Shown piece after piece: positions 12,306 to 62,098 of a stretch of DNA of 64,000 bases (position 1 is the first letter of the stretch; the number at the start of each line of letters is the position of its first letter). Both the position numbers and the translations under genes were made by a program. Source of the DNA: Kiloniella laminariae (GTDB lineage Bacteria; Pseudomonadota; Alphaproteobacteria; Kiloniellales; Kiloniellaceae); NCBI RefSeq assembly GCF_027214005.1, contig NZ_JAPWGY010000003.1, positions 62,001 to 126,000 on the forward strand, given 5' to 3'. The notes under the pieces were generated by a model. That model had not been told where the DNA came from. It searched no databases and was given only the letters and a program-made list of their open reading frames with translations.

Positions 12306-12794
12306 CTACAACAGGCGCTCAATAGGATAGCCAGAAAAGTGTTTCGAGGTGTTGAGAACAACATGAGAGCTGATGTTCATCACGCCCTGTGTTTCGGTTG
12401 CATCAAGCAGATAATCATTGATCTCGTTATACCGGGCCATATCCGGCGCGACGATCCGCAAGCAAAAATCAAATGATCCACTGACCATATAACATTCCAC
12501 CACCTCTGGAATGTCCTGAACGTAATCCTGGAAAGCCTTGAACTGTTCACGGCTGTGATCCTTGAGAGTCACCGTCGCAATTACCATAACCGAGCGACAG
12601 ACCCGCTCCAGATCGACCATACCAAAAAACGGACCGATAAAACCGCGCTCCTCAAGTTTCCTTACCCGGTTAAGGCAGGAACTCGGAGAAAGGTTCACCC
12701 GCTCGGACAGCTCCTGATTCGTGATCCGCGCTTCTTTCTGAAGAATGGATAGAATCTTCTGATCCATTTTATCTAGCTGCAGATTCTTCGTCAT
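12306..12794 (-). CDS. Lrp/AsnC-family transcriptional regulator
   Basis: A 162-residue feast/famine regulator: N-terminal helix-turn-helix (LDKMDQKILSILQKEARITN, ELSERVNLSPSSCLNRVRKL) and a C-terminal RAM effector-binding domain (VECYMVSGSFDFCLRIVAPD, GVMNISSHVVLNTSK). The ATG at 12794 is preferred over one 18 bases upstream because GGAG lies 6 bases before it, inside the longer frame. It is divergent from the AST operon, so regulation of arginine catabolism is the natural inference; a 9-bp inverted repeat sits between them. Confidence 0.92.
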   Translation of the reverse strand: MTKNLQLDKMDQKILSILQKEARITNQELSERVNLSPSSCLNRVRKLEERGFIGPFFGMVDLERVCRSVMVIATVTLKDHSREQFKAFQDYVQDIPEVVECYMVSGSFDFCLRIVAPDMARYNEINDYLLDATETQGVMNISSHVVLNTSKHFSGYPIERLL

Positions 12795-12893
12795 TTTATC
12801 TCCACAGGTCACAGAAAACCGTACATTCCAGGAAAGATCCGTAAAATCACCTTACCCTGTTTTTTTCACCAAAACCCGCATTATGAGTAATGT

Positions 12894-13001: not shown

Positions 13002-13178
13002 GGGAACGATGAGAATGATAACACCTGCGGTAGCTTCTACGGTAGAATTGTTTCAATGCTGTTCGTCAGTCCCGGATTTACCTTCACAGATCCCGATTTG
13101 GCGGCCCGTACATAACAAACCACTAGCAAAACCGGAACCACTTCCCTGTGAAACGGGGTGCCCGGCAAGGAGCAAAAA

Positions 13179-14369
13179 ATGACAGACATTCTTCCCGGTC
13201 GCGAAGCCATGATGGCAACCTACAGCCCTCCTGACATCGCTTTTGAAAAAGGTGAAGGCTCCTGGCTTTACGCCAATGACGGAAGAAAATACCTCGACTT
13301 TTACAGCGGGATTGCAGTCTGCTCCTTCGGTCACGCCCACCCGCATCTGGTCAAGGCCCTGAAAGACCAGGCAGAAAAGTTCTGGCATTGCTCCAACATG
13401 TTCCGGATTACGGAAACCGAAAAACTGGCCCAGCGCCTCGTTGATAACAGCTTTGCCACCAAGGTTTTCTTCAGCAACTCTGGCGCCGAAGCCAACGAAT
13501 GTGGTCTCAAGATTCTGCGCAAATACCAAGAATCAAAAGGTCGCCCCGAGCGCAAGCGTATCATCGGTTTCCACAGTGCCTTCCACGGCCGGACCATTGG
13601 CACGATTTCTGCCGCGGGCAACCCCGGTCATACCGCTGGTTTTGTCATGGAAGATGAAGGCTATGATCATGTTCCCTATGGCGACCTCAAGGCCCTGGAA
13701 GCAGCCATCACGGACAAGACTGCCGGAATCATCTTTGAGCCTGTACAGGGTGAAGGCGGTATCCGCCCCGCAACAGTTGAATTTGTCAGGGGTATCCGGG
13801 CGCTTTGTGACAAACACGACATCCTGATGATGGTCGATGAAGTCCAATGCGGTATGGGCCGTACCGGTAAAATGTTCGGATATGAGTGGTCCGGCGTAGA
13901 GCCCGACGTCATGTCCCTTGCCAAAGGCATGGGTGGTGGCTTCCCGGTTGGCGCCTGCCTGGCCAATGACAAGGCCGCGGCCCCGATGATCTTCGGCACC
14001 CACGGCAGTACTTTTGGTGGCAACCCGCTGGCAGGTGCCGTTGGAAACGCGGTCCTCGATCTCATGCTGGAAAAGGGCTTCCTCCAGTCTGTTACTGACA
14101 AGGCAAACAAGGTACGGGCCGAGCTCGAAGGCCTGATTGCCAAGCACCCCAAAGCCCTGGTTTCTGTCCACGGCCTTGGTCTGATGATCGGTATCAAATG
14201 CGTGGTGCCAAATGGTGATATGCTGCTTGAGTTGCGCAAACAGGGTCTGCTGTGTGCCAAATCCGGTGACAACCAGATCCGGTTCCTGCCGCCGCTGAAC
14301 GTTTCTGATGCCGAACTGGATGCCGCGATCGAGATCTTTGATCGCGCCTGTACAGCTCTGACAGCATAA
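13179..14369 (+). CDS. astC: Succinylornithine / acetylornithine aminotransferase (class III PLP)
   Basis: Transaminates N-succinylornithine to succinylglutamate semialdehyde, step 3 of the AST pathway; homologues also act as ArgD. From the ATG at 13179 (AAGGAG 7 bases upstream; a GTG 21 bases earlier is less likely) it has 396 residues. Seen: YLDFYSGIAVCSFGHAHP, FFSNSGAEANECGLKI, FHSAFHGRTIGTISAAG, FEPVQGEGGIRPA, VDEVQCGMGRTGKM and the PLP lysine in SLAKGMGGGFPVGA. Its place at the head of the ast genes assigns it to arginine degradation rather than synthesis. Confidence 0.9.
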   Translation: MTDILPGREAMMATYSPPDIAFEKGEGSWLYANDGRKYLDFYSGIAVCSFGHAHPHLVKALKDQAEKFWHCSNMFRITETEKLAQRLVDNSFATKVFFSNSGAEANECGLKILRKYQESKGRPERKRIIGFHSAFHGRTIGTISAAGNPGHTAGFVMEDEGYDHVPYGDLKALEAAITDKTAGIIFEPVQGEGGIRPATVEFVRGIRALCDKHDILMMVDEVQCGMGRTGKMFGYEWSGVEPDVMSLAKGMGGGFPVGACLANDKAAAPMIFGTHGSTFGGNPLAGAVGNAVLDLMLEKGFLQSVTDKANKVRAELEGLIAKHPKALVSVHGLGLMIGIKCVVPNGDMLLELRKQGLLCAKSGDNQIRFLPPLNVSDAELDAAIEIFDRACTALTA

Positions 14370-14383
14370 GGAAACGCCGGTCG

Positions 14384-15622
14384 ATGACTTACCACCCTAT
14401 CCTCGAGTGGATTGAACAGCAGCAGGATAAAATGCTTGCTAACGTTCTTGCGCTCAGCAATCTCAATTCCGGCAGCGCCAACGTTGCCGGAATTGAGCAG
14501 GTCGTCGACCGGCTTTCTGATCTGGCAAGCTCTCTGGGGGCAACGGAAGAACGTATCTCCCTTGCCCCGCGCAGTGAAGTCCTCGATAACGGGCAGATTC
14601 TGGAAAAACAGAGCGGTCCTCTGCTCCGTTTGACCAAGCGCCCCAATGCCAACCGACGGATTCTGCTGGTCGGGCACAGCGATACTGTCTATCCGGTTGA
14701 TCATGCCTTTCAAACCTGTCGTCATCTCGATGACAACACGGTCAACGGTCCAGGCGTTGCCGACATGAAGGGTGGACTTGTTGTCATGCTGACAGCCTTG
14801 CAGGCCCTCGAACGCAGCCGCTTTGCAGAAAATATCGGCTGGCAGATTATTATCAATCCGGATGAGGAAATAGGCTCTTTTGCTTCGGCGCCCTATCTGG
14901 ATGAAGCCGCCCGTGCTGCCGACGTCGGCATGATCTTTGAACCAGCGCTTGCCGATGGGACTCTGGCTGGTGCCCGCAAGGGCAGTGGCAACTTTTCACT
15001 GATCGCCCGGGGCAAAGCCGCACATGCCGGGCGGGAACACCATCTCGGCCGTAATGCCATTGCAGCCCTTGCCCGCGCCATGACCCTGCTTGATGGCCTC
15101 AACGGCCAACACGAAGGCGTCACCATCAATCTGGCCAAGCTAACTGGCGGCGGCCCCAACAATGTTGTTCCGGATTTTGCCCTCTGTCGTTTCAATATCC
15201 GGGTACCGACACCTGAAGGGCAAAGCTGGGCTGAAGAACAACTGGCACAAATTGTCGCCCGGATTGGCACTGAAGAAGGCATCACCCTCGAACTGCACGG
15301 TGCTTTTGGCAGGCAACCCAAGGTAATGGACAAGGCGCATGAACAGCTCTTCGCCCTGCTGCGCAGTTGTGGCGCAGATCTGGGCCTGCCGCCGATTGAA
15401 GCCAAAGCGACGGGCGGGTGCTGTGACGGTAACAACCTCGCCGCAGCTGGTCTGGCCAATATCGATACTCTTGGCGTACGAGGCGGCGCCATCCACAGCA
15501 CAGACGAATTTCTGCTCGTGGACAGTCTGAGCGAACGCGCAAAACTGACGGCTTTATTGTTGATGAAACTTGCTGCCGGGGAAGCCAACTGGCCTGACCG
15601 GGCAACCTCCGTCAGCGAATGA
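14384..15622 (+). CDS. M20-family metallohydrolase (CPG2-like), candidate succinylglutamate desuccinylase
   Basis: A dizinc aminoacylase/carboxypeptidase of 412 residues. Visible metal and catalytic motifs are LVGHSDTVYP, GPGVADMKGGLV, the NPDEEIGSFAS glutamates, a central dimerisation domain (KAAHAGREHHLGRNAIAALA) and a C-terminal GGAIHSTDEFLLVDS histidine. The nearest recognisable relatives are glutamate carboxypeptidase/acetylornithine deacetylase-like hydrolases. It lies 14 bp after astC and before astA in an operon without astE. Since the last AST step hydrolyses N-succinylglutamate, this enzyme is the obvious candidate to do it. That function is inferred from position. Confidence 0.85.
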   Translation: MTYHPILEWIEQQQDKMLANVLALSNLNSGSANVAGIEQVVDRLSDLASSLGATEERISLAPRSEVLDNGQILEKQSGPLLRLTKRPNANRRILLVGHSDTVYPVDHAFQTCRHLDDNTVNGPGVADMKGGLVVMLTALQALERSRFAENIGWQIIINPDEEIGSFASAPYLDEAARAADVGMIFEPALADGTLAGARKGSGNFSLIARGKAAHAGREHHLGRNAIAALARAMTLLDGLNGQHEGVTINLAKLTGGGPNNVVPDFALCRFNIRVPTPEGQSWAEEQLAQIVARIGTEEGITLELHGAFGRQPKVMDKAHEQLFALLRSCGADLGLPPIEAKATGGCCDGNNLAAAGLANIDTLGVRGGAIHSTDEFLLVDSLSERAKLTALLLMKLAAGEANWPDRATSVSE

Positions 15623-15715
15623 TCCCTGACGAGGGCCTGATATAACATTTGTCTGACCCGGCACCCCAACAAAACAGGTTGCTGGATCGACCTCTTTCAA
15701 ACTGGAAATAACCTG

Positions 15716-16759
15716 ATGCTACTTATCCGACCTGCACGACAAAGCGACATGGGCGATCTTATGGGCCTGTCGCACGCTGTTGGAACCGGTATGACCTCCA
15801 TGCCCGCCAACGAAGGCGCCTGGCTGGAAAAACTGACCCGATCAGAAGCCAGCTTCAAGTCCCCGGCCAACGGGCCGACGGGTGAAATCTATTTCATGGT
15901 TCTGGAAGATACCGCCACACGCAAGGTGGTGGGGACAACCGCGATCTATGCGGGTGTTGGCCTTAAACATCCCTTCTATTCCTACAAGGTTTCCACCATT
16001 GTTTCCGCTTCCGGTGAACTGGATACCACCCGGAAAATGCGTATTCTCTATCTGGTTAACGACTACACCGGCTCAACCGAGATCGGCTCGCTTTATCTAT
16101 CAGCCGACTATCGCCAGCCGGGAGTCGGACAGTTTCTTTCCCGCTGCCGTTATCTCACTCTTGCAGATTTCCCCGATCGTTTTGGCGATACGGTGATCGC
16201 CGAGATGCGGGGCTGGCAGGACAAGGAAGGTCGTTCGCCCTTCTGGAATCACCTGGGTGGCAAGTTTTTCGGTATCGCCTTTGAAAGCGCCGACAAGATT
16301 TCCTCGGTCAAGGGCACCCAGATCATTTCCGATCTTATGCCAAAGTATCCGATCTATATCGACCTGCTGCCGGAAGAAGCACAAAATGTTATCGGCAAAC
16401 CCCATGATTCTTCCAGCCCTGCCCTGCGCCTGCTGGAAAAGGAAGGTTTTACCTTTAAGGGATATGTCGATGTCTTCGATGGTGGTCCCTCTGTCGAGGT
16501 TCCGGTCCAGAACATCAAGACCCTGCAGGCAAGCCGCATCGCCACCTTTGCCGGTGTCGAGGAACAGGAAACAGCCGAAGACCAGTCAAACCTCTATATG
16601 ATAAGCAACGGGAATATTACCGCCTATCGCATGTGTTTGCAGCCGGCAAGACTGGATGAAGAAGGTCAGATTTATCTGACCCAGGAAACTGTCGAGGCCA
16701 TGAGGCTGAACAAGGGCGATCAAATCCGCTGCGTAAAATTCCGGGAGAAAAAGGCATGA
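15716..16759 (+). CDS. astA: Arginine N-succinyltransferase
   Basis: First step of the AST pathway: arginine + succinyl-CoA to N2-succinylarginine. The 347-residue protein begins LLIRPARQSDMGDLMGLSHA, then has the GNAT-like VVGTTAIYAGVGLKHPFYSY, LVNDYTGSTEIGSLYLSADY and the family segment SRCRYLTLADFPDRFGDTVI; later FWNHLGGKFFGIAFESADK. Length is that of E. coli AstA. A 93-bp gap precedes it, and its stop overlaps the astD start (ATGA). Confidence 0.96.
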   Translation: MLLIRPARQSDMGDLMGLSHAVGTGMTSMPANEGAWLEKLTRSEASFKSPANGPTGEIYFMVLEDTATRKVVGTTAIYAGVGLKHPFYSYKVSTIVSASGELDTTRKMRILYLVNDYTGSTEIGSLYLSADYRQPGVGQFLSRCRYLTLADFPDRFGDTVIAEMRGWQDKEGRSPFWNHLGGKFFGIAFESADKISSVKGTQIISDLMPKYPIYIDLLPEEAQNVIGKPHDSSSPALRLLEKEGFTFKGYVDVFDGGPSVEVPVQNIKTLQASRIATFAGVEEQETAEDQSNLYMISNGNITAYRMCLQPARLDEEGQIYLTQETVEAMRLNKGDQIRCVKFREKKA

Positions 16760-18249
16760 GCCTCAAACAGAAACTTTTCATCAATGGCATCTGGAAAGAA
16801 GGCAAGGGCGAAGCGCTTGTTTCGATCAATCCCGCCAGTAACGAAACCATCTGGCAGGCCGCGTCGGCGACCAGAGCCGATGTTGATGAAGCCGTTGCCA
16901 GCGCCCGTGCTGCCCTGCGCAACTGGGCGCTCGCCCCTCTCGCCAGCCGAGTAGAGATCATCACCGGCTACCGCGACCTGCTGAAAGAACGTCAGGAAGA
17001 ACTCGCCGTTGCCATTGCGCAGGAAACCGGGAAACCCTTATGGGAAACCCGCACCGAAGCCGCCTCCATGGTGGGTAAGGTCAACCTGTCGCTGGATGCC
17101 TTTGAAAAGCGCACCGGACATTCCGAAAACCCCATGGGTGATGGCCTGAAAGCCAGCCTGCGGCACAAGCCCCACGGTGTGGTCGCGGTCTTCGGCCCCT
17201 ATAACTTCCCCGGCCATCTGCCCAACGGCCATATCGTGCCGTCTCTGATTGCGGGCAACACCATTGTCTTCAAACCCAGTGACCTGACCCCCATGGTCGC
17301 CGAGGTCATGGTCCAGGCCTGGGCTGATGCCGGACTCCCCGCCGGGGTGCTCAATCTGGTACAGGGCACCAAGGAAACCGGGATTGCTCTTGCTGGTCAT
17401 GACGGCATCGATGGTCTGTTCTTTACTGGCAGTTCCGCAACCGGGGAGCTGCTGCACCGCCAGTACGGTGGCCAGCCCGGCAAAATCCTTGCACTTGAGA
17501 TGGGCGGGAACAATCCGCTGATCGTTATGGAAGCCGCAGATCATCAGGCCGCAGCCTTTCACACCATCCAGTCCGCCTATGTGACTTCTGGTCAGCGCTG
17601 CACCTGTTCACGTCGCCTTATCCTACCAACGGGCGCAGAGGGTGATACCTTTCTCGATACTCTGCTGACCCAGATCGATGGCATCAAGGTTGGCCTGGAT
17701 GATCCGGAAAACCCGCCGTTTATGGGCTCTCTGGTCTCCAATGCCGCTGCCGATGGCATTCTCGCCGCGCAGGAAAAGCTCGAAGGACTTGGCGGCAAAG
17801 TCCTGCGTCGGGCCAAACGCCTGTTCGACGGCAAGCCTTTCCTTACTCCGGCGCTGATTGATGTCACCGCTGTCACCAACCTGCCAGACGAAGAATATTT
17901 TGGCCCCTTGCTGCAGATCATCCGGGTTGCCGATTTTGATGAAGCCGTCCGCGTTGCCAACAACACCCGTTTTGGCCTGTCAGCTGGTATTCTCACTGAC
18001 CGTAAGGACCTCTGGGAGAAATTCTGGGCTGAAAGCCGGGCCGGGATTGTCAACTGGAACCGGCCTTTGACCGGGGCCAGCGGTGCGGCTCCCTTTGGCG
18101 GTATCGGTGCCAGTGGCAACCACCGTCCCAGCGCGTTTTACGCCGCAGATTACGCCGCCTACCCCGTTGCCTCTCTCGAAGCAGAACATCTGGACGTTCC
18201 CGCCCAGCTGCCACCGGGCATCACTCTGAACACAGGGGCGAAAGCATGA
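16756..18249 (+). CDS. astD: N-succinylglutamate 5-semialdehyde dehydrogenase
   Basis: NAD-dependent oxidation of succinylglutamate semialdehyde to succinylglutamate, step 4 of the AST pathway. The 497-residue aldehyde dehydrogenase has [37 protein letters not shown], the general-base Glu in [13 protein letters not shown], the catalytic Cys in [15 protein letters not shown] and [10 protein letters not shown]. The [13 protein letters not shown] signature is the one seen in AstD. It overlaps both neighbours by four bases (ATGA), so the three genes are translationally coupled. Confidence 0.96.
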
Positions 18250-19601
18250 AATACTACGAGGTAAACTTCGACGGTCTGGTCGGCCCGACCCATAACTTTG
18301 CCGGTTTGTCCTATGGCAACATCGCCTCTGACAAGTCAGCCAAGGAAAACTCCAGCCCCAAGGGTGCCGCCCTGCAGGGGCTGGAGAAAATGAAGGCCCT
18401 GTCCGATCTCGGCATGAAACAGGGTGTGCTGCCCCCGCAGGAACGCCCGCACATGCCAACCCTGCGCAAGCTCGGTTTCACAGGCAGTGACAAGGAAGTC
18501 CTGAGTAAAGCGGCAAAGACCAATCCCGCCCTGCTTGCCGGAGCCTCTTCGGCCTCCTGCATGTGGGTTGCCAACGCCGCCACGGTTTCCCCTCACCCCG
18601 ATACCGCTGATGGCCGGACCCATTTCACCCCGGCCAATCTGGTCTCCATGTTCCATCGCTCGATCGAGCATCCGGCAACCGGACGGGCGCTGCAGACCAT
18701 CTTTGCCGATGAGAGCCGCTTTGCCCATCACCCCGCCCTGCATGGCAGCAGCCACTTCGGCGATGAAGGTGCCGCCAACCACACCCGCTTCTGCAGTGAT
18801 TACGGCGATCCCGGTGTCGAGTTTTTTGTCTATGGCATCGAGGCCTTGCGCAAGAGCGCTCCGGCGCCGAAACGCTTTCCCGCCCGTCAGACACTCGAAG
18901 CCTGTCAGGCCGTCGCCCGGCTGCATGGGCTGGCAGATGACCGCGTGGTCTTTGCCCAGCAGAACCCCGATGTGATTGATCAGGGCGTGTTCCACAACGA
19001 CGTGATCTCGGTCGGGAATGGCCGGATCCTGTTCCACCACGAAAAAGCCTTCCTCAACAGTGAAGAAGTAAAGGCAGAGCTGAACCGGAAACTGCCCGGT
19101 GCGGATATGATTTTTGTCGAAGTGCCCGATGCCCAGGTCCCGGTCGAGGACGCGGTCCAGAGCTATCTTTTCAACAGTCAGCTGGTCTCCTGTGGGGCCA
19201 ATGGTGGCGGCAGCAACAGCGCCACCCTGATCGCCCCGATCGAATGTGAAGAGAACCCCAAAGTCCGCGCCTATCTTGATCAACTGATCAAAAGCGGCAG
19301 CGCCATCAGCGATGTCCGTTTTTTCAACCTGCGTCAGTCCATGAAAAACGGCGGTGGCCCGGCTTGCCTGCGCTTGCGCGTGGTGCTCAATGACGGCGAT
19401 CTGGCGTCACTCGGAGCCAGAGTCCTGCTCGATGACCACCTTTACGCCGATCTGAAAGCCTGGATCGAGCGTCACTATCGCGACGAACTCGCCGCCGAAG
19501 ACCTGCGCGACCCGGCCCTGCTCTACGAAGTCCGCACCGCCCTGGAAGAGCTGACCCGCATTCTCAACCTCGGTAAACTCTACGACTTCCAACGCGGGTG
19601 A
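18246..19601 (+). CDS. astB: N-succinylarginine dihydrolase
   Basis: Second AST step: succinylarginine to succinylornithine, two ammonia and CO2. The 451-residue protein belongs to the amidinotransferase fold family. It begins [20 protein letters not shown], contains [59 protein letters not shown], and the catalytic Cys in [18 protein letters not shown]. It is the last gene of the operon, overlapping astD by four bases, and is followed by a strong terminator. No astE follows. Confidence 0.97.
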
Positions 19602-19643: not shown

Positions 19644-19675
19644 CCCGGAAAGATCCGTCTTTCCGGGTTCTTTTT
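19644..19675 (+). terminator. Rho-independent terminator of the AST operon
   Basis: CCCGGAAAGA (19644-19653) and TCTTTCCGGG (19658-19667) form a perfect 10-bp stem with a TCCG tetraloop, followed by TTCTTTTT. It starts 43 bp after the astB stop. The opposite strand has no T-run after the stem, so it does not serve the convergent cfa gene. Confidence 0.95.
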
Positions 19676-61617: not shown

Positions 61618-62098
61618 GGTGGCTTGAATAGAGTCCAAAGCACTCCGCAACAAAAGGTGGATGAGAGAAAAGACTATTTGCCTGCAGATAATTTCCAAAA
61701 GCGGGTCCAGGGGCAGATTTAAAGCGGCAGAGCGTGACATGGGGTGTAAATTTTTCACGCTCCAGATTCACCCCCACCGATTGGGCTGCGTGCTCGATCT
61801 TGCGTTTAAGGTCTGATATTTCAGGCGTCTTCTCGACACCTGCCCAAAGCATTCTTGGTTTGTTTTCCTTGCCGAATGCCCCTACGCCGCTCAGGCGAAC
61901 CTCAAAAGGTTTGAAGTGTATCCGGCTGAAAACCTCATCAAGATCGCGGGCAACCGCTCCATTGACCTCACCAAAAAATCGTAAGGTTATATGAAAATTT
62001 TCGGGAACGACCCAGCGCTGACCTGGCAAACCGTGACATAAACCCATCAAGCTCAAACGGGCTTCTTCGGGTAACGCAATCGCCGAAAATAGGCGCAT
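61535..62098 (-). CDS. thpR: RNA 2',3'-cyclic phosphodiesterase (ThpR/LigT)
   Basis: Opens 2',3'-cyclic phosphate ends of RNA and tRNA halves. From the ATG at 62098 (perfect AGGAGG 7 bases upstream) the protein has 187 residues. Two HxTx motifs are visible: FHITLRFFGEVNGA and PHVTLCRFKS, with RLSGVGAFGKENKPRMLWAG between them. A 24-codon upstream extension was rejected. It overlaps the end of the DMT transporter gene by 83 bp on the other strand. Confidence 0.95.
   Translation of the reverse strand: MRLFSAIALPEEARLSLMGLCHGLPGQRWVVPENFHITLRFFGEVNGAVARDLDEVFSRIHFKPFEVRLSGVGAFGKENKPRMLWAGVEKTPEISDLKRKIEHAAQSVGVNLEREKFTPHVTLCRFKSAPGPAFGNYLQANSLFSHPPFVAECFGLYSSHLTPSGACYALEADYPEPFFSWTETLDI

Follow-up and report, generated by a model that had tools for sequence, protein, structure and literature searches.

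In the arginine succinyltransferase (AST) pathway, AstD produces N-succinylglutamate, the substrate of succinylglutamate desuccinylase (EC 3.5.1.96); the described enzyme for this step, AstE, is zinc-dependent. Carboxypeptidase G2 (CPG2), the solved enzyme whose fold lies closest to the protein considered here, is periplasmic and folate-directed and releases L-glutamate from folates. We analysed a 64,000-nucleotide stretch of the genome of the marine bacterium Kiloniella laminariae (NZ_JAPWGY010000003.1, positions 62,001 to 126,000; hereafter the window) containing an ast operon in which the gene for an M20 metallohydrolase (14384–15622) sits between astC and astA. Judged from sequence and gene context, this protein would be, with a probability of about 0.85, the succinylglutamate desuccinylase of the AST pathway and a non-orthologous replacement of AstE. 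We infer both its substrate and its chemistry.

The M20 protein and its ast neighbourhood

The operon order on the forward strand, as proposed in the preliminary description of the window, is confirmed by the list of open reading frames (ORFs) together with Pfam and NCBIfam matches. It runs astC, M20 hydrolase, astA, astD, astB and terminator, and an Lrp-type regulator gene faces the opposite way:

13179–14369, + strand: astC, succinylornithine transaminase of ArgD type (NF002325, 567 bits)
14384–15622, + strand: M20 metallohydrolase (NF005602/PRK07338), proposed N-succinylglutamate desuccinylase replacing AstE
15716–16759, + strand: astA, arginine N-succinyltransferase (PF04958, TIGR03243)
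16756–18249, + strand: astD, succinylglutamate-semialdehyde dehydrogenase (TIGR03240, 759 bits)
18246–19601, + strand: astB, N-succinylarginine dihydrolase (PF04996, TIGR03241)
19644–19667, + strand: intrinsic terminator-like stem-loop with a T-rich tail
12306–12812, − strand: Lrp/AsnC-family regulator (PF13412, PF01037), divergent from the ast operon

Gaps of 14 bp separate astC from the M20 gene and 93 bp the latter from astA, and there are 4-bp overlaps at astA/astD and at astD/astB. AstA scores 416 bits on PF04958 and lies above the cut-off of TIGR03243 and slightly below that of TIGR03244 (373 versus 391 bits), while AstD and AstB are recognised by the NCBIfam models listed above, the latter with 699 bits on TIGR03241.

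The M20 protein belongs to NCBIfam family NF005602 (551.2 bits over residues 3–401; cut-off 357), which is called simply "hydrolase", with no substrate in the name. Its Pfam domains are PF01546 and PF07687 (M20_dimer); M28 was matched below cut-off and no AstE/AspA model was matched. The protein falls below the cut-offs of two ArgE models (TIGR01892, 57.9 versus 297.7 bits; NF003474, 42.2 versus 460) and of the glutamate carboxypeptidase model NF004788 (PRK06133; 196.7 versus 349). An AlphaFold2 model (pLDDT 93.4) displays a two-domain M20 fold for which CPG2 ranks first among solved structures, with TM-scores of 0.79–0.85.

Ten catalytic and lid residues (H98, D100, D127, E161, E162, E186, H371, H214, N260 and R310) align with equivalent residues of CPG2, and all ten are kept both in the ast-linked clade (98/98 rows, 94 genes, four rows repeating a gene) and outside it (9/9 rows, 7 genes, two rows repeating a gene). 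Other positions distinguish the clade: E143, G152, S201, R217, C347, N351, T362 and I370 are each found in at least 95% of ast-clade rows and in 0/9 of the others, with R217, C347, N351 and I370 reaching 98–100%. The same division appears in a tree of 45 rows, where 38 ast-clade proteins split from 7 others with support of 100/99; the CPG2 branch and some other rows are very long, so that exact placements among them are unsure. L055, whose gene is broken at a contig end, was omitted from both the residue count and the tree. A pairwise PDB alignment that set CPG2 R324 opposite a histidine was discarded, the multiple alignment pairing R324 with R310. The CPG2 lid residues are named as His229, Asn275 and Arg324 in a review (PMC6271292); with the numbering offset of 22 that this implies, they align with H214, N260 and R310.

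We found 411 confirmed M20 relatives in the genome collection and kept the best 80 loci for neighbourhood counts. Within these 80, the closest are from Kiloniella, with 91% identity to the M20 protein in K. laminariae; by title, most are marine Gammaproteobacteria, 13 are Alphaproteobacteria (or its orders or genera), and one each, all metagenome-assembled genomes, come from Deltaproteobacteria, Desulfobacterales and Pirellulaceae. On the same strand and within 5 kb of the M20 gene we found astA in 68/80, astD in 65/80, astC in 61/80 and astB in 59/80 loci, and at least one of astA, astB and astD in 71/80. The remaining nine comprise three that stop within about 600 bp of a contig edge and six from Endozoicomonas, which have astC alone. 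A query with E. coli AstE at E ≤ 1e-5 found no match in any of the 80 loci; the same query recovered AstE in all five AstE-bearing gammaproteobacterial genomes used as a control. Many Oceanospirillales loci, L008–L020 among them, have two astA-like genes after the M20 gene where Kiloniella has one; these are, we presume, probably the two subunits of the arginine/ornithine succinyltransferase AruF/AruG.

AstE in Kiloniella and in sampled genomes

The lack of astE noted earlier extends to the genome as a whole, which is listed as 100% complete in 61 contigs. A profile search of it found no match to PF04952, the C-terminal domain of AstE, and nothing above the cut-off of the AstE model TIGR03242 (305.65 bits), the best score being about 25.3–26.6 bits. 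A hidden AstE was therefore rejected on TIGR03242, though two distant members of PF24827, the AstE/AspA catalytic domain family, exist in the genome.

We surveyed 424 genomes, 192 from Alphaproteobacteria and 232 from Gammaproteobacteria, drawn evenly within each class. Gammaproteobacterial searches used E ≤ 1e-60 for AstB, 1e-80 for NF005602 and 1e-12 for AstE, a second locus set of 44 genomes used E ≤ 1e-9 for AstE, and all other searches used E ≤ 0.001; G007, at 1.5 Mb, is one of several small genomes in the gammaproteobacterial sample and the locus sets. Among the Alphaproteobacteria, AstB was clear in 8 genomes and NF005602 above cut-off in 6, and in all 6 of these AstB lay on the same contig with less than 3 kb between the genes; AstE was above cut-off in 0/192, with a best match of 61 bits. 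The Gammaproteobacteria yielded AstB in 13 genomes, NF005602 above cut-off in 10 and AstE in 5, with AstB present in 7/10 M20 genomes and 5/5 AstE genomes, and M20 and AstE together in none. Across both classes, the M20 gene was beside astA in each of the 16 genomes with NF005602 above cut-off. The 21 genomes with AstB, a count from which G208 with its 19-bit AstB fragment was left out, divide into 13 with M20, 5 with AstE, none with both and 3 with neither. Fisher tests, which ignore relatedness, gave p = 4e-10 (Alphaproteobacteria) and 3e-8 (Gammaproteobacteria) for the association of M20 with AstB, and p = 0.003 for the exclusion of M20 and AstE within the 21 AstB genomes.

In a wider set of 94 M20-bearing genomes (36 + 44 + 5 further Alphaproteobacteria + 9 further Gammaproteobacteria, the 36 not counting the genome of L021), AstE was above cut-off in none. 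The AstE model matched 5/5 AstE control genomes run with the 44-genome set, and a Caulobacter vibrioides control genome had AstB and NF005602 above their cut-offs with no AstE match. G352 and G452, which have AstE, also gave NF005602 matches of about 313 bits, slightly below cut-off. These were rejected as family members: they are not ast-linked and fall outside the ast clade in the tree, and by eye they have signal-peptide-like N-termini and RND-like and esterase-like neighbours.

Above its cut-off, the M20 subgroup lies with ast genes across the 424 genomes and never together with AstE. The suggestion that AstE has been replaced by an unrelated enzyme, first made from the window, is supported by the absence of AstE as judged by its model, the ast linkage and the mutual exclusion in sampled genomes, as well as by the intact M20 catalytic residues and the CPG2-like predicted fold. 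The survey proposed with that suggestion was to cover the Alphaproteobacteria; the pattern is present there, but it is not confined to them and recurs in Gammaproteobacteria.

Several observations weigh against a replacement of AstE by the M20 protein. The first concerns PF24827, since the Kiloniella genome encodes two such proteins unlinked to ast (about 137–139 bits and 61 bits), and among the 16 sampled M20 genomes 11 have one or more. One of the two might carry out the AstE reaction, leaving the M20 protein an accessory role such as clearing other N-acyl-glutamates. We consider this very improbable. The stronger protein reaches 26.6 bits with the AstE model and 80 bits with the DoeB model (cut-off 402.7), and its gene directly follows rimK and a RimB-like retropepsin gene (G000:C22:587265-589745; L087, L141); the weaker was not matched by the AstE model at E ≤ 0.001 and lies between genes for a PcrA/UvrD-like helicase and a ClC-like chloride channel. 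Both fit uses other than that of AstE. Beyond Kiloniella, the domain was searched for in 24 genomes including the 16 sampled M20 genomes, five of which (G045, G087, G344, G324 and G244) have no PF24827 match at E ≤ 0.001; G045, a single contig, and G087 are listed as 100% complete. Furthermore, three of the five AstE-bearing genomes (G348, G352 and G452) have extra PF24827 proteins, so that such proteins coexist with AstE. Classification was made for the proteins of the Kiloniella genome (G000) and for the strongest of G176, out of the 11 genomes with matches; the latter is DoeB of ectoine breakdown (557 bits, beside DoeA). As a separate observation, the RimK-linked Kiloniella protein may act, outside arginine breakdown, on the glutamate tails that RimK adds.

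The other opposing points come from gene content. The alphaproteobacterial genome G134 (contig C44, L123) has astA-astD-astB with neither NF005602 nor AstE above cut-off, which implies a third solution, families that do not cover every case or a gene lost from the assembly. In G129 and G249, the other two genomes with AstB and neither enzyme, the AstB matches are below cut-off, and the sequence read around them (20.0 and 19.5 kb) contains neither astA nor astD. The six Endozoicomonas loci have the M20 gene after astC, and none of astA, astB and astD lies within 5 kb. Finally, astD does not adjoin the M20 gene in G045 and G160: in G045 an AstD (49% identity, 430 bits) is encoded about 100 kb away, and no astD was found in G160 within the 58 kb read.

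Substrate and proposed mechanism

G045 and G160 bear also on the choice of substrate. Their clusters are M20-astA-astB with neither astC nor astD beside them, an arrangement that would suit a shortcut downstream of AstB, in which N-succinylornithine is hydrolysed to ornithine and succinate and succinylglutamate is handled otherwise; M20 enzymes do include acetylornithine deacetylases. We regard this shortcut as unlikely. Removal of the succinyl group from succinylornithine would leave AstD idle and without purpose, yet astD is within 5 kb in 65/80 loci, and G045 still has its distant AstD. Moreover, three genomes (G430, G324 and G244; L126, L127 and L128) have M20, astA and astD side by side with no AstB match in the genome at E ≤ 1e-60, the arrangement expected if the M20 protein acts after AstD. 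On gene content, these three argue for succinylglutamate over succinylornithine as the probable substrate. Their clusters resemble a version of the pathway for ornithine only.

The transaminase gene raises a different alternative. The product of astC scores 567 bits on the ArgD-type model NF002325, above cut-off, and 395 bits on the AstC model TIGR03246, below its cut-off of 610. It is an ArgD-type duplicate, unlike the E. coli type of AstC, and as such the transaminase step of the pathway too is filled from a different family branch. Because ArgE is itself an M20 enzyme, astC and the M20 gene might together serve arginine biosynthesis, as ArgD and an ArgE-like acetylornithine deacetylase, and lie beside astA, astD and astB by chance. 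This is improbable in the extreme, as the Kiloniella genome has ArgJ and a second, higher-scoring ArgD (608 bits) adjoining ornithine carbamoyltransferase and away from the ast operon, and on these grounds an ArgE-type role was rejected. ArgJ was found in all six alphaproteobacterial M20 genomes, Kiloniella included, so ArgE is not needed there. Furthermore, the acetylornithine deacetylase model gives the M20 protein 58 bits versus 551 for NF005602, and NF005602 stands beside astA in all 16 sampled genomes that have it above cut-off.

For succinylglutamate desuccinylation, the simplest mechanism would be that of an N-acyl-L-glutamate amidohydrolase resembling CPG2, its pocket adapted to succinate; we infer the part played by each residue. 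A dimeric, cytoplasmic, di-zinc amidohydrolase would bind N-succinyl-L-glutamate, with H98, D127, E162, E186 and H371 as putative zinc ligands and E161 as putative general base, roles that we assign presumptively by analogy with M20 enzymes. Lid-domain residues R310, H214 and N260 would hold the carboxylates and the oxyanion, and the clade-specific R217 and GG(C/V)C(D/E)GNN loop (344–351) might fit the succinyl or γ-carboxylate side. Attack of water on the amide would then release succinate and L-glutamate.

Operon boundaries and comparison with known enzymes

The astC ORF is listed as 13158–14369, with an internal ATG at 13179 preceded by AGGAG; on account of this motif we take 13179 as the correct start, in agreement with the operon start given previously. 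The terminator reported after astB was also found, as a 10-pair stem at 19644–19667 followed by TTCTTTTTAT; terminator-like sites in the whole window number 8 versus a shuffle mean of 8.6 and are no commoner than chance. The Lrp/AsnC-family gene (12306–12812) is probably a local regulator of the ast operon, and G176 as well as loci of other Kiloniella, Sneathiella and Arenicella have a similar divergent regulator gene in front of astC.

Many other bacteria seem, from their gene content, to use an M20 enzyme for the last step of the AST pathway, and a function can probably be assigned to the NF005602 "hydrolase" family. We think it quite likely that NF005602 is a second, unrelated succinylglutamate desuccinylase, usual in Alphaproteobacteria and in many marine Gammaproteobacteria, that the last step of the AST pathway exists in two interchangeable forms, and that the pathway looks incomplete in Alphaproteobacteria mainly because the enzyme is unnamed. 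Among the papers listed from an open-access library, judged by titles and abstract openings, none assigns an M20 enzyme to this step, and an earlier description is possible; the main text of PMC9007349 contains neither "desuccinylase" nor "M20". Non-orthologous replacements are common; this one would extend over the AST genomes sampled from a class and assign a substrate to an unnamed family. If correct, the assignment would close a hole in arginine catabolism in a class where AstE was above cut-off in none of the 192 sampled genomes, give a curated "hydrolase" family a substrate that can be tested, and provide a clear example of two unrelated enzymes that serve one reaction and apparently exclude each other.

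Of the described enzymes, AstE (TIGR03242; PF24827 and PF04952) shares with the M20 protein the proposed reaction, the slot in the pathway and a dependence on zinc that is likewise proposed for the M20 protein, but it belongs to the AstE/AspA family and not to M20, and was above cut-off in 0/94 M20-bearing genomes. DapE, the succinyl-diaminopimelate desuccinylase, has an M20 fold (TM-scores of about 0.6–0.78) and also removes a succinyl group, but the M20 protein scores 77 bits on its model against a cut-off of 284. CPG2 (1cg2, 6xj5) has the nearest fold and, together with a designed variant, supplies the best PDB sequence matches; it has the same catalytic and lid residues, although it is 23–24% identical to the M20 protein and lacks R217, C347, N351 and I370. 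The M20 protein is itself a member of NF005602/PRK07338; the family name is silent on substrate, and the link to ast is added here.

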